Under the pieces are notes generated by a model. The model saw nothing but the letters and a program-made list of their open reading frames with translations, was not told the origin of the DNA and searched no databases. DNA of 64,000 bases from Polytrichum commune (Eukaryota; Streptophyta; Polytrichopsida; Polytrichales; Polytrichaceae). The first letter of the stretch is position 1, and each line of letters starts with the position of its first letter. The position numbers and the translations under genes are program-made. The stretch lies in assembly GCA_950295325.1 (NCBI GenBank), contig OX485804.1, forward strand, positions 40,548,001-40,612,000, written 5' to 3'. This document shows positions 49,800-59,300 of the stretch, one piece after another.

Positions 49800-50084
49800 G
49801 GCCCTGCCTCTGCGTCTCCCCCACTCCCCCACTCCCCCAGCTACTAAGCTTGTCAAGAAAGCTCTCTCTTCTTCATCATCACCACCGCCGCTGGAACTGT
49901 CTTTCTCCTCTGTGTACATAAGCTCCTCTCTCCTGCGGTCGTTTGCATTCCGCAAACAAACTTTCTTGGATCGTGCGCTGAAAGGTGTGCCTTAATTCTG
50001 CGCTTCGGAAGACGCGGGAGTCGTTTGGAAAGTGTTGCAGGGGTTTTTGTTTTACCGGTGTGGTGTCGAGGGGAGTTTGGGGCA
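49800..50084 (+). promoter_or_regulatory. Probable core promoter and leader of EXORDIUM-like
   Basis: Pyrimidine-rich stretches CTCTCTCTTCTTCATCATC near 49861-49880 and CTCCTCTCTCCTG near 49922-49935 resemble the Y-patch region of plant core promoters. No convincing TATA box was placed. Position is inferred only from distance to the start codon. Confidence 0.3.
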
Positions 50085-51092
50085 ATGGCGGTCGCCAGTG
50101 GGGTGATGCGAGTGGTGTTGGCGTTGGTGATGGTTGTGATTTGTGATGCGAGGGGTGCGATGTTCTCAATTTTGATGGGTTCTGGAGTACAGGGTGGTCA
50201 TAGCGCAGGGGAGGAGGCGCCTGTGCCCGTGAGGTCGACAGTGGAGTTGGAGTATCACAGTGGGCCGATGTTGTCTGGAATTGGTAGCTTGGATGTGAAC
50301 TTAATCTGGTACGGGAGCTTCAGCGATTCGCAGCGCTCCACCATTGTGGATTTCTTCTCCTCGTTCCAAGAGTCACCGGATGTTCACCCTTCCGTGAGCA
50401 GCTGGTGGAAGACGACATCAGCCTACAAGGATTTCTCCAATACAGGAGTGAAGCCGACCGTGAAATTGGCGGGGGAGGTTTCCAACACGGATTACACGCT
50501 TGGAAGGAGGCTAAGCAGGTGGGACGTCGAGTTGTTGGTGCTGGACTCGTTAAGCTCCTTCACACCCGATTCCAAGGCAATTTACCTCGTCTTGACCTCG
50601 GAGGACGTGTACGTGGATGGCTTCTGCAGAAGCGCATGTGCTTCCCACTCGTTTATTCCTCCCTCTGCGGTCTCCATGGGACATCAGCTCTCATACGCAT
50701 GGGTTGGAAACTCAGGAACTCAGTGTCCTGGCATGTGTGCGTGGCCTTTCGCTCTACCGGCGTATGCTCCTCTTAATGCTCTCCCTCTTGTAGCTCCAAA
50801 TGGGGACATAGGTTTGGACGGCATGGTGATCAACATTGCTAACATGCTCGCGGGTACTGCTACCGATCCTTACATCAATGCGTACTACCAAGGGGATGCG
50901 TTGGCTCCTCTGGAGTCCGCGACTGCATGTGCAGGCATCTATGGCGAGGGAGCTTACCCTGGTTACCCTGGACAGTTGTTGAAGGACCCTATCGTTGGTG
51001 CAAGCTACAATGTGCATGGGGTTAACCGGAGGATGTTCCTGTTGCCTGCGCTGTGGGATCCTGTTACTCGAACTTGTGCACCTCCTTCTTAA
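50085..51092 (+). CDS. EXORDIUM-like protein (phosphate-induced protein 1 family)
   Basis: A single intronless frame. The start at 50085 gives 335 residues and places a hydrophobic signal peptide (GVMRVVLALVMVVICDARG) at the very N-terminus; an upstream in-frame ATG at 50025 would add 20 residues before it and is less likely. The family motifs are in order: LEYHSGPMLSG and LNLIWYGSF-type block, then VSSWWKTTSAYKD, YLVLTSEDVYVDGFCRSACA, YAWVGNSGTQCPGMCAWPF, PNGDIGLDGMVINIANMLAG, INAYYQGDALAPLESATACA, and GASYNVHGVNRRMFLLPALW near the end. Paired cysteines fit an extracellular protein. In Arabidopsis, EXO and EXL proteins are apoplastic and link carbon status and brassinosteroid signalling to growth; the role here is by family only. 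Nothing looks broken. Confidence 0.93.
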   Translation: MAVASGVMRVVLALVMVVICDARGAMFSILMGSGVQGGHSAGEEAPVPVRSTVELEYHSGPMLSGIGSLDVNLIWYGSFSDSQRSTIVDFFSSFQESPDVHPSVSSWWKTTSAYKDFSNTGVKPTVKLAGEVSNTDYTLGRRLSRWDVELLVLDSLSSFTPDSKAIYLVLTSEDVYVDGFCRSACASHSFIPPSAVSMGHQLSYAWVGNSGTQCPGMCAWPFALPAYAPLNALPLVAPNGDIGLDGMVINIANMLAGTATDPYINAYYQGDALAPLESATACAGIYGEGAYPGYPGQLLKDPIVGASYNVHGVNRRMFLLPALWDPVTRTCAPPS

Positions 51093-53620: not shown

Positions 53621-55357
53621 TCAGCTCTCGGACAGGGCGGCCTGTAGACGTTTGGCAACCGCATCCCAAGAAACCAGCTCATTCATGAATGTGGTCAAAT
53701 AATCAGGCCGTCGGTTCTGTAAAACATGGATAAATTCACAATTGTTCAAATATAAGTACACTGGCGCGGGTGGACAAGTATTTTCGCTACCCGCACATTC
53801 GTTCTCGGACACACAACTCGCAACATCAGCAATTTACAATGGTGCCGAATAAGCGAATTAAATAGAAATTCCATAGCAGGTTAGATTCTTTCAATCGAGA
53901 TGCAAGTTTCATTTTCTTAAGAACCTAATTACCTCATCCATATCCAAAAGCTTTCATGCAAGCATGTGTTGCATACATAAACATAGTGAAAGAAAATAAA
54001 AATGTGATTGAGAATGTATTCAGAGCCATCAACTAACCTGGTAATCGAGGTAGTATGCGTGCTGCATCAGAGACGACATGACATCCACACGTCAGTTTAT
54101 GTACACATTAGTTCGTATCGCAATTCTGCTAAGATGAACAACAAAAACAACAACAACCCTACAGAATAGATGCTAACCTGAAACTACAAATTTTGAAAAT
54201 GGAAGAAAACTATTGATACGAGCAGAACAAGTTACATTTCTTAGAAAAAGTCCGATAGTCAAGTCAATTACCTCCCAGACGTCTGCGACGAGCAGTGGCT
54301 GTTCACAGTGCAACTCCACATGTTAGTTCGGCTGAATTCCGGTAGCCACCGCTACCTATGTCCCACAAGTGATATTCTCTTCATGCTTCTTATGTTTAAA
54401 AGGCAGAGATCTGAAAACCCTTGGCCGCAATCCATGGCATTATGACTGTTGCACTTGTATAAGTCTTAAGAGTTTCGGCAGATAGCAATACAAAAGTCCT
54501 ATGCTAATGGAACATTGATTTGGCATTACGAGTGCAATTTGCGATCGAATGAGATGAGTGTAATTCATGCATGACTCACAGTGTGGCCAAACACAAGCGG
54601 GTTGATAGCGTTGGGGCTATTCTGGACTGTCAATTTGCCATCCTGCATGGTCAACCAAGCCCAGCCTGATCCGAACTGAGTGGCACCTGCTTGCTTGAAC
54701 TGCGTTACAAACTGGTCGTAAGAGCCGAAATCACGTTTGAGAAGCCCCAACAGCTCTCCCTCGGGGGCCTTTCCACCGTCCGGCGACATCGACAGCCAGA
54801 AGAACTCATGGTTCCACGCCTAACCTCGACCATATACTAGCAATGTTAGAACTGCAAAAAGGTGCAGTGCACATGTAACACCCAGGAAGCATATTGAAAA
54901 TTTACTACGAAGAATGAGCATGGGTGGGACCTAAGTTGCTGCAGTCATAAGGGCTTTGAGTTGTAGTCGATCACCTGACCCGCATTGTTGAAAGCAGCTG
55001 TTGGCTGTCCGTTGTTGTAGGAAATTTTCACAATCTCCTCCAAGCTTTTGGTGGCCAACTCGGTACCTTCTATCTGCTTCTTCAGGTTGTCTACGTAAGA
55101 GCGGTGGTGCTTGCCCCAGTGATACTCCAACGTCTGTTTGCTCATGTGAGGCTCCAATGCATCCTGCCAACAATCGTTTTACCGATAATGTCATTATACC
55201 ATCGGCATCATCGTCAGTACGAATCACTCTCCAAGAATTTCACGGAGTAGACACAAATCCTTTGTAAGAAGGCAGATTCGGTGTGATTTGTACTCACCAG
55301 AGCATATGGGGGAGGTCTCAGATCCACTGTTGTCAAAGGGAGCGGAACTGTTGCCAT
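53621..55357 (-). CDS. FSD: Iron superoxide dismutase (Fe-SOD)
   Basis: Six exons on the minus strand: 55357-55298, 55163-54975, 54819-54580, 54298-54272, 54061-54038 and 53716-53621. All introns are GT/AG and phase 0, and the frame gives 211 residues, matching short plant Fe-SODs of about 212. It dismutates superoxide to oxygen and hydrogen peroxide. Metal ligands are visible: His35 (LEYHWGKHH), His87 (AWNHEFFW), Asp169 and His173 (DVWEHAYY). The block [12 protein letters not shown] is present. An in-frame TAG four codons before the ATG supports this start unless an upstream exon exists. No clear plastid transit peptide is seen, as in Arabidopsis FSD1. Exons 4 and 5 are only 27 and 24 nt. 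The gene is head to head with CCS, and the shared region is rich in GTACT. Confidence 0.95.
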
Positions 55358-56651
55358 GCTTAACAGCTACCTAGAGTTGTAATGTTCTGCAACGCCCCAC
55401 AGAATCGGCCCACGGACTTACACGATTATCAAAGCTTCGGCGAAAATCAGCAACGTCAAAGCCAGTGACTGAACCAGAGTGTTCAAAGAAGAAGAGATAC
55501 ACACATGGTGAGGATACTGATGAGATGTGGGGTTTGATGAGTTGCACTAACTTCAATTTCCCAAAAGAAGATAGGCGAGTGGTGAGCACATGTACTGGGG
55601 AACTTGGAAGAGATAAAGTGAAGATAGTGGTAAGAGTTAAAAAAGGCTGTGTAAGATCGAAGTAGTACTGCAACAAAAAGTGCGTACTACTTGTAGTACA
55701 CTGGTGAAGGTTGAAGAAGGATATACTTCCCGCATTGAGAGTTCAAGATGATGTACTACGTCTGCTGTGCCCAGAAGAATTCTACAGCTCTTCTCCACAT
55801 TCACCTGAGTGTAGTACACCAGGCTATTGGAACGGTCAAGCTTTTCAGCTGGTACTACCAATTGTACTAGATAATTAGGTCAATGCGTTTGAGTCTCCAG
55901 GTCATCCTCCCTAGTCACATGCTACTACTGATGCTTCAGCTGGGGCTAATTAATTGTGTGGAAAATTTAATCTCTCTACTTCAATGACTGATCCAGGTAA
56001 CTTATTACTCTCATGGCAATTGCATGTACGTACTCCATGTACTTGAAATCCCAACAGAATATTCTCGCATTCACCGTATATTCTGACTGTTAAGACTTTC
56101 GTCCATTCAACCTAATCTTGTTTATGAATCTTTGAAGCTCAATGCCAAGCGGACAGGCGTTGTATTGATTTTTCAAAGATATAAAAGCTTGCCCAGCAAT
56201 TCTAGTCTGTTCAGGAATCATCATATGTCCACAGGCGTCTCATTACTGGAAAATGCACGTTGCTATCGTGGAGTGATCTTGTTGACATGGTGTTGTCATT
56301 GTTTTGGCATTTTGTATACAGATACAAATCCACAGATGTTCACACTTGTTGGTAACTCAACCAACGCCCACGATTGAATCGATGATGAAAAGTGGTCGAT
56401 AACACTTCCACCTTACCCAAACAGAAAGGTAAAACTGGAGGGCCCCAGTACTTCAACAGGAGTACTGCATCGTAGTTTGGCAGTACATCTAAGTAGTACC
56501 AATGTGACACCATTGTGACACCATTATTTACCTACTTACTTTCAAGTCATAAGGAACCATCAATAGTAGTGGCATTCAAGAAGGCACCGAGCACTTGACC
56601 AGCTTACACAGTACCTCAAAGAAGCGGAGATTGTGAAGCTGTTGGAAAGTC
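55358..56651. promoter_or_regulatory. Bidirectional Fe-SOD/CCS intergenic region with GTACT cluster
   Basis: This 1294-bp stretch separates two divergent start codons. GTAC occurs 16 times, at 55592, 55665, 55684, 55696, 55753, 55814, 55852, 55864, 56026, 56030, 56039, 56448, 56462, 56483, 56496 and 56611. All but the one at 56026 are in the form GTACT or AGTAC. Eight fall within 276 bp at 55592-55867. GTAC is the core bound by the SBP-domain copper regulators CRR1 (Chlamydomonas) and SPL7 (Arabidopsis), and a GTACT element was described in the copper-repressed Fe-SOD promoter of the moss Barbula unguiculata. The motif positions are seen; copper regulation is inferred. Confidence 0.6.
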
Positions 56652-58394
56652 ATGCCTGTGTTCACCCTCCCAAGCCTCAGCAGCATTAGCATCGCCGGCA
56701 TTGAGGTAAGGAGCACTCGATCGACAATTGTTGCTTCCATTTCATCTCATCTCACTGTTCAATGTCTGCAACTCTTATGTGATTCTATAGAAATGTGTAT
56801 CTATGCTTCTGAGTACCCTTGGAATTGGGGGTTGCAGGGGAATTTGAAGGTTCTGAATAAGGGTTCCAGTACTGAATTAACGAAACGTTTCCCGCCTGTG
56901 CTCGCCACAATGGGTGCGAGCAGCAAAGTATTTAATACAGGTATGTTAATTTCCGATGGATTTACGGCCATCCAATTCTATAAACAGGCGGAATATTGTA
57001 GCTTGCGAGTAGGTTGACAGCTGCAGAGTTAGCAATGGAGAGCAGGATGAATTCATTGACTGAGAAAATGAGAGTCGTTCTTAACCTGCAGGTGAAGCTG
57101 ATGTCGGTACTCTCAAGGAGCTTAGTGTAGGCAATAATCAGCACACATTGGAAGTAATGGGTATTGTGCAATCGACCAAGTTTCCTCCGCCCATCGTAAT
57201 TAGCGATCAACAACCCAACCCTTCAGCATGTAAGTATATACACCAACCCGCATGATATCATTGTTTAATAATCTTTCCCTCCTGAAGTATATCCTGTGCA
57301 ATTTAATTCCGAGCATTTCGGTCCTCATCAAAGAATTTGGTGGATCGGTTCACTGATACGCCAACTCAGGATCAGGGAAGAATTTCAAGGTGTACAAGAG
57401 GATGGTATCTTTTCAAAACAATTCACCGATGTTGTGGTTTGGATGTAATTCATGGCAGGTGTTCCGATGACAATAGCAGTGGCAGAATTCAAAGGACCGG
57501 ATGTGCATGGGGTGGTGCGATTCGCCCAAGGGAGCACTGGAGAGCGGGCTTCTTGCAGCATTGAAGCTGTCATTGATGGATTGGCTCCCGGCGCACATGG
57601 CTGGAGTGTCCATGAATTTGGCGATTTGACACAAGGTCCGATGACCACTGGCCCTGTCTACAATATTGATCCCGCATCGTCACCCTCTGTAAGATATTCT
57701 TCATCACACATACATTCTCGCTTGAAACATCATCTCAAGCTGATTTCCATTGTAATTTCTGCTGATAAGTATTGGAATTCGTAGCACCCGCAGAGAACCT
57801 GGTTTGAATCTTCTAAAATACTTAAGAAGCACTATCGTGGAGCTGCTTTCGCACACAAGAACTATTCTTAAGACTACCGATACACTCTAAGAAGATGAAT
57901 AATTTTGTTCACAAATGAACATGAATACCTAAAGTTTGGGACACTGCTTTAGAAGAACTGCTTCCCATTAGTTTTCAAATTGGTTCATGAATGCGTATAC
58001 CATGTCTAGTTCACACGCAAATCTATCAATAAGAGTTCCCTTAATGCCCTATTTCCAAGCACGTTTCTCCTCTTTGTGGGGACTTATGCTGAAATCTGAA
58101 TGTGTGATGATTAAATTCTTGCAATGGTGGCAGCATGAACAGGAGAAGAGGGGCAACCTGGGAATGTTGTTGGTAGACAGCCATGGCCATGTGGAAAGCA
58201 CTGCCACGCATGACATGCTCATGGTGGCCGACGTCATTGGCCGCTCAGTAGTGCTCTATGGTGTCTCCGAGGAAGGCCACATCACACGAGTGGCTGCGGC
58301 TGTCATCGCTCGCAGCGCCAGACCTAGCTCCCTCAATCCCCAGCTCTGCAATTGCGATGGCTCTATCCTTTGGCAAGGCACGACCACTTCGTAG
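56652..58394 (+). CDS. CCS: Copper chaperone for Cu/Zn superoxide dismutase (CCS)
   Basis: Predicted exons are 56652-56705, 56838-56940, 57459-57688 and 58134-58394, giving 215 residues. CCS docks on Cu/Zn-SOD, delivers copper and forms its disulfide. The SOD-like domain II is clear: GVPMTIAVAEFKGPDVHGVV, HGWSVHEFGDLTQGPMTTGP, then NLGMLLVDSHG, VADVIGRSVVLYG and AAAVIARSARP. Copper ligands of real SOD are partly lost, as expected for CCS. Domain III keeps the CXC motif in LCNCDGSILW near the end. Domain I, usually a heavy-metal-associated fold with MXCXXC, is short and reads MPVFTLPSLSS at that place, without cysteines. The tail end of domain I aligns loosely with other plant CCS proteins. 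No transit peptide is visible. The first exon and the 58134 acceptor are the least certain; an alternative acceptor lies six bases downstream. Confidence 0.85.
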
Positions 58395-59300
58395 AAGCAT
58401 GGGATCATCTGCCCCCCAACTTCCTTGCACACAGATGTATCATGTTTGTCACCTTCTGTACATATACATACGTCACCTTGTGAATTCCTTCCTCTGAATT
58501 CTCGATTCTCCAATTCTAAATGCAAGTGCAAAGATTATTGTCAAGTCATCAGCACAATGAATTGCTTCCATCAGTAATTCCTTGGACATCATTAAATCGC
58601 ATCGTGGACACTCATCTTTCTCTCACACAACATGTACAGACAATCGTGAATGCTTCTTCACTCCATAATTGTGGATAATGCAAGTAGATGGGTTGGTTCC
58701 TCAACCCCCTGCTCTGCAATTGTGATGGTTCTCTCTTGTGGCAGGGCTTGCCCAGTTCGTAACTTCGGATCAACTGCCTCCGAAGATGTTCGCACATCGA
58801 TTCACCGCCCACGTCGCCTTGTGCACATAGCTATGCGGACCTTGGATTTTTTTCATCTAAAATCTCCATTCTCGAATGGTAAATGCAATCCATGTCATAT
58901 TGTTGTTGAATTCATCAGCGCTGTGAATTCCATATCAGTAATTCTCTAACTTCTTGCCAGCATAGGGTGTGCACTCATTTTACTCCAATCCAATTGCATG
59001 CCGAAAGACATATTAATGATCTGTGACTTCCGGCGACCCATGTGTACAGAATTCTTGGATGATTTATTCCATAAACTTAGACCTGCCCCTGGAGCTCGTT
59101 GCAGATAGATTCACCACAACCGAATCGCCAGACTCTATCTCTCTCGTCTGCAACATTCCCCCGCACCTTCTAGTGTAGATATATACAGATTTTATCACTC
59201 TCGATTCTCGACTTGTAAATACAATTGGTGAAATTGTTGTCGAAATCACCACTCCTATCCGTCCTCCCTTCGAATTCTTCCTATCTCATGGTGTACACTC
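58326..59300 (+). repeat. Tandem copies of the 3' end of CCS
   Basis: Copy 1 (58326-58692) includes the end of the last CCS exon. Copy 2 (58693-59055) repeats it with a period near 367: CTGCTCTGCAATTGTGATGG corresponds to the codons for the CXC motif. Later landmarks TAAATGCAA, TCATCAGC.C..TGAATT and CATCAGTAATTC are shared. Copy 3 (about 59056-59300) is partial and more diverged, recognisable by GATTCACC, CTCGATTCTCGA, TAAATACAATTG and CTCGTTTTACTC. Confidence 0.75.

Follow-up and report, generated by a model that had tools for sequence, protein, structure and literature searches.

The window considered here is a stretch of 64,000 nucleotides from the moss Polytrichum commune (C2:40548001-40612000, in a genome of 408 Mb in 64 contigs). 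Within it, a minus-strand iron superoxide dismutase (Fe-SOD) gene and a plus-strand CCS-like gene are arranged head-to-head, separated by a spacer of 1294 bp from start codon to start codon (55358-56651). This 1.3-kb spacer is probably a two-ended copper-response promoter, with both genes controlled together by an SPL7/CRR1-type SBP factor. We infer that such a factor would bind clusters of GTACTRC and GTAC sites adjoining each gene, so that Fe-SOD and its neighbor would be co-expressed, most likely being induced when copper is scarce, with Fe-SOD then replacing Cu/Zn-SOD. The partner gene is a divergent CCS paralogue: the copper-collecting MXCXXC domain has been lost, whereas the SOD-like docking domain and the CXC tail are retained. 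SPL7-type control is well supported by the sequence for Fe-SOD, and is likely for the CCS-like gene. The coordinates of all features are collected in Table 1.

Seed plants swap Cu/Zn-SOD for Fe-SOD by means of SPL7, which acts directly on FSD1 and, via miR398, on CSD and CCS. If a plant instead places Fe-SOD and a CCS-like gene under one SPL7-type promoter, it would be reaching the same copper economy by different wiring. Such an arrangement would also show that a CCS paralogue was recruited to copper scarcity after the loss of its copper-collecting domain. Among the papers listed by searches of open-licence literature, a body that leaves most subscription papers outside, with some listings covering the first 10 to 20 papers, none describes a shared Fe-SOD/CCS promoter in its title or opening abstract lines.

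Table 1. Genes and sequence elements around the shared spacer (window coordinates)
Feature	Position	Strand	Description
Fe-SOD gene	53621..55357	minus	6 coding exons, 211 aa, GT-AG gene model
Fe-SOD coding exons	55298-55357, 54975-55163, 54580-54819, 54272-54298, 54038-54061, 53621-53716	minus	
Fe-SOD-side cluster	55592..55868		8 GTACT/AGTAC cores, 7 GTACTRC; 235-511 bp upstream of Fe-SOD ATG
Middle trio of GTAC cores	56026..56043		without GTACTRC
TATAAA	56180..56185	plus	sole TATAAA in 55359-56700, points towards CCS-like gene
CCS-like-side cluster	56448..56614		5 GTACT/AGTAC cores, 3 GTACTRC; 38-204 bp upstream of CCS-like ATG
CCS-like gene	56652..58394	plus	5 coding exons, 261 aa, GT-AG gene model
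CCS-like coding exons	56652-56705, 56838-56940, 57092-57229, 57459-57688, 58134-58394	plus	

GTACTRC sites in the shared spacer

All introns of the two rebuilt gene models are GT-AG. The minus-strand protein matches Sod_Fe_N (4.5e-25) and Sod_Fe_C (4e-36) in Pfam; its top match in the PDB is a superoxide dismutase (2.7e-90), with iron and chloroplastic Fe superoxide dismutase chains among the next. Because of these two Pfam domains and the Fe-SODs among its best PDB matches, the gene is identified as Fe-SOD, in agreement with the initial annotation. For the CCS-like gene, translation may alternatively begin at an ATG near 56910.

Our recount of the spacer reproduces the earlier figures for this 1.3-kb divergent region: 16 GTAC cores, 15 of them in the form GTACT/AGTAC, and eight of these inside 276 bp from 55592. 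The excess over chance claimed at that time likewise holds. A background of 192.7 kb, made up of 13 arbitrary 10-kb regions and the remainder of the window, contains 2.18 GTAC, 1.09 GTACT/AGTAC cores, and 0.119 GTACTRC per kb, so that about 1.4 GTACT/AGTAC cores would be expected in the spacer; the highest count among 1746 sliding background windows of 1297 bp is nine. The density of the spacer is thus far above the background rate, but it is not unique, as one of the 13 arbitrary regions holds 10 GTACT/AGTAC cores in 1.3 kb. For this reason, plain GTACT density has been set aside as the key evidence.

GTACTRC discriminates better than plain GTACT density. Counts and simulations for this word cover 55359-56655 (1297 bp), where there are 10 matches on nine cores; the entire window has 15, so that two thirds of them fall here. 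Across the 1746 background windows, the count never exceeds two. Sequences were simulated under four models (first- and second-order models of the window and of the region, 2000 sequences each). At least 15 GTACT/AGTAC cores were obtained in 0 of 2000 sequences under each of the first-order window, second-order window, and first-order region models. The second-order model of the region itself gives 15 cores in 26 of 2000 sequences, and 6 of its 2000 sequences hold eight within 276 bp. Ten GTACTRC were reached in none of the 8000 sequences from the four models. The sites fall into two main groups, one next to each gene, and no GTAC starts between 56040 and 56447, leaving about 400 bp that divide the middle trio from the CCS-like-side cluster.

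GTACTRC clusters and copper-related genes across the genome

Three patterns, in which two GTACTRC in one of three arrangements are followed by a GTAC with gaps of up to 30, were run over the whole genome. The scans return 25, 49, and 20 places, which merge to 69 loci, or to 52 after 17 loci belonging to three repeat families are removed by eye. The Fe-SOD-side cluster is recovered by all three scans and the CCS-like-side cluster by two of them, and the spacer is the only merged locus that spans two separate clusters. Its cluster strings are absent elsewhere in the three scan lists; no separate DNA search for further spacer copies was run, and the lists serve in its place. The resulting list is a testable candidate set of copper-scarcity targets for this 408-Mb genome. 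One dense GTACTRC cluster (C1:58227631-58227683), matched by all three patterns, may mark a candidate copper-scarcity gene; a further cluster away from the genes located here is at C6:34835670. A repeat family with a close GTACTRC pair (C1:943272, C1:75550069, and C3:10988061) could spread SBP sites.

Copper-related genes were located by family searches and related to the scan lists by the presence of a cluster locus within 5 kb upstream. Gene-to-cluster distances are rough, because gene starts are approximated by the first detected exon. A cluster lies upstream of two of the three CTR (copper-transporter) genes, at 1.4 and 0.35 kb; the three CTR loci hold 3, 4, and 5 GTACTRC (10 kb each), the last being the one without a cluster. 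The sole MIR408 candidate has a cluster 2.6 kb upstream. In the ferric-reductase superfamily (39 rows at 18 loci, of which eight are ferric reductases by eye and the others are taken for NADPH-oxidase types), one locus of 18 has an upstream cluster, 3.5 kb from its first detected exon. Leaving aside the pair in the window, 4 of 37 located genes have a cluster, versus 0.024 expected (0.00064 per gene). The patterns were drawn up with the CTR sites already known, while the MIR408 and ferric-reductase loci were found after the scan lists were fixed. These latter two groups give 2 of 19 (Poisson P 7e-5 with 52 loci, 1.3e-4 with 69), and 2 of 27 when the eight SBP genes are added (1.5e-4 and 2.6e-4, respectively).

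Within 5 kb upstream, no cluster is present at any of the remaining SOD-related genes, namely the two canonical CCS copies, two CSD (Cu/Zn-SOD) genes, a second Fe-SOD, a Mn-SOD-like gene, and a SOD on contig C19 (the Mn-SOD-like and CSD labels being given by visual inspection of family and tblastn matches). GTACTRC counts are 0 and 0 in the 10-kb stretches of the canonical CCS copies, 2 and 0 at the CSD loci (10 kb each), 0 in 8 kb at the second Fe-SOD, and 0 in 7 kb at the Mn-SOD-like gene. Contig C19 (17,233 bases) is possibly a contaminant; its SOD is intronless and 34% identical to the Fe-SOD of the window.

Eight SBP genes are detected in the genome, as 16 exon matches. The one at C1:113668 is the only one that was read, through its first SBP exon, which is the weakest among the first-exon matches and reads RCQVPACGADLARLKGYHQRHRVCLRCANATTVVLHDISQRYCQQCGK. 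Its domain (C1:113664-113812) also matches Pfam SBP, and its top PDB match is AtSPL7, with 71.8 bits versus 51.3 for SPL12 as the next. It has CLRC as in SPL7, where SPL12 has CEIH and SPL4 CEVH. An SPL7-type SBP domain is encoded in the genome. Together with the fit of the spacer sites to the Arabidopsis SPL7 motif, and with the GTACTRC clusters upstream of the MIR408 candidate, of CTR genes, and of a single ferric-reductase locus, this domain strongly supports the copper control region proposed in the initial annotation, apart from its operation as a switch, which is discussed below.

The closest parallel comes from Arabidopsis. Passages of PMC9516184 report that GTACTRC is enriched among genes bound and raised by SPL7 at low copper, that FSD1 has the most pronounced SPL7-dependent regulation, and that FSD1 is a direct SPL7 target with a peak holding eight GTAC cores and two GTACTRC. 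As far as these passages go, the FSD1 promoter and the window have in common an Fe-SOD with many GTAC cores plus GTACTRC, alongside an SPL7-type SBP domain. They differ in that the spacer, with its 16 GTAC and 10 GTACTRC, is shared with a CCS-like gene.

Several points weigh against a two-ended, SPL7-type promoter. The patterns were devised after the window and the CTR promoters had been inspected. Reversed patterns, used as a control, match more places than the real ones (202/163, 215/187, and 179/148 on the two strands), meaning that the genome as a whole has no excess of such clusters, and that the argument rests on their positions; the reversed pattern is not taken as a null, because reversal alters the sequence context of the word. 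The MIR408 candidate scores 42.5 bits (E 4.6e-7) and does not reach the Rfam gathering score of 64. No listed cluster lies within 5 kb upstream of one of the three CTR genes, of 17 of the 18 ferric-reductase-superfamily loci, or of any of the eight SBP genes, the SPL7-type one included. At the spacer itself, the CCS-like-side cluster may sit in the leader rather than in the promoter, because the sole TATAAA (56180) is upstream of this cluster. Finally, it is PpSBP2, not SPL7, that is reported for the repressive high-copper GTACT element in Physcomitrella (passages of PMC3617394).

This last point leads to a different candidate for the acting protein. The GTACT motifs of the P. patens Fe-SOD promoter are described in PMC3617394, as far as its passage on them extends, as bound by PpSBP2 with repression at high copper. 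The GTACT element of Barbula and Physcomitrella Fe-SOD (Nagae 2008, cited there) is likewise a copper-linked GTACT at a bryophyte Fe-SOD; it differs in being repressive via PpSBP2, and the passage mentions no CCS-like partner. A PpSBP2-type high-copper repressor could similarly use the sites in the spacer in place of SPL7, with copper repressing both genes, and eight SBP genes are detected here that could supply one. We consider this quite unlikely, since the sites fit GTACTRC, the consensus for SPL7, and target classes of the SPL7 type turn up in the cluster lists.

The sites could also be the product of chance or of a GTAC-rich repeat element, given that other regions attain 10 GTACT/AGTAC cores per 1.3 kb, that three repeat families are present in the genome-wide lists, and that the reversed patterns outnumber the real ones. 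Such an origin is hardly credible in view of the cluster strings found nowhere else in the three lists, the simulations that never reach 10 GTACTRC, and the enrichment of copper genes near cluster loci.

A CCS paralogue without the MXCXXC domain

The plus-strand gene had been taken for CCS in the initial annotation, and this assignment needs correction. Judged by its predicted protein, which lacks the MXCXXC copper-binding domain, the gene is a divergent paralogue of CCS and not an ordinary CCS. Its SOD-like domain II is present (Pfam Sod_Cu, 9e-17), CCS is its top PDB match (7.3e-21), and the C-terminal CXC of domain III is kept, with CNCDG aligning to CSCDG of a solved CCS. No HMA domain I is listed for it in Pfam at E up to 10, where filters drop most weak matches, and no M.C..C motif occurs in 55359-58500 on either strand. 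Read by eye, the exon at 57092-57229 resembles what may be left of the latter half of domain I.

Canonical CCS is encoded at C4:15.01 Mb, with a near copy inverted at C4:14.95 Mb, both with MKCEGC. These two similar copies (C4:15004001-15014000 and C4:14952001-14962000) lie in inverted orientation about 57 kb apart. They share the SOD-like domain II and the CXC domain III with the paralogue in the window, but have the MXCXXC domain I that the latter lacks. Identity between the CCS-like protein and canonical CCS is 42-52% over aligned exons. For domains II and III, the reading frame of the CCS-like gene is intact and dN against the canonical copy is 0.42, while dS is not computable, which is taken as saturation. 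The intact frame, this dN, and the presumed saturation of dS suggest long constraint. The CCS-like gene may hence be a paralogue of long standing kept under constraint, and not a pseudogene of recent origin, although a loss of function in one lineage stays undated. The end of its last exon and the 3′ flank (58330-58640) are duplicated downstream as a fragment, at about 58698-59000.

The missing domain bears on whether the sites serve both genes. They might act on Fe-SOD alone, with the CCS-like gene being a bystander or decaying. The absence of domain I and the duplicated tail fragment would fit this, as would the prominence of FSD1 in SPL7-dependent regulation in Arabidopsis (passages of PMC9516184). 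We regard it as unlikely, though a serious alternative: a separate cluster with three GTACTRC lies within 38-204 bp of the CCS-like start, beyond the stretch of about 400 bp devoid of GTAC, and the conserved frame of domains II and III points to long constraint on the protein.

The initial annotation had further proposed an opposed switch, in which copper scarcity raises Fe-SOD and lowers the CCS gene, with the reverse at plenty. Such a switch would fit how Fe-SOD and CCS behave physiologically in other plants. Furthermore, P. patens is reported to be without miR398, with CSD1 being targeted by miR1073 instead (passages of PMC9502370), leaving room for transcriptional control to lower CCS. In P. 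commune, the Rfam MIR398 model gives no match among the 46 of 77338 candidates scored, with no control signal. As written, however, the switch is unsupported, and we find it decidedly improbable. The plus-strand gene is not a canonical CCS, GTACTRC is absent from the 10-kb stretches of the canonical copies, and a site cluster adjoins the CCS-like start, as it does at a CTR gene. Since sites are found near both starts and none at canonical CCS, control in the same direction is favored over opposed control.

If the spacer is indeed a two-ended promoter induced at copper scarcity, the question becomes what the CCS-like protein would contribute. Even lacking domain I, it might still mature Cu/Zn-SOD; alternatively, it might compete with canonical CCS. 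In a more specific scenario, which we offer as speculation and would not expect to hold, the protein is induced at copper scarcity and docks on Cu/Zn-SOD or on canonical CCS, thereby withholding copper loading, with Fe-SOD raised at the same time from the shared promoter. If true, this block would be a protein-level, transcriptionally coupled stand-in for the miR398-CCS/CSD arm reported missing in P. patens.

Elsewhere in the window, a Phi_1 (phosphate-induced protein 1) gene at 49848-51092 carries two GTACTRC within its reading frame, at 50854 and 50882.

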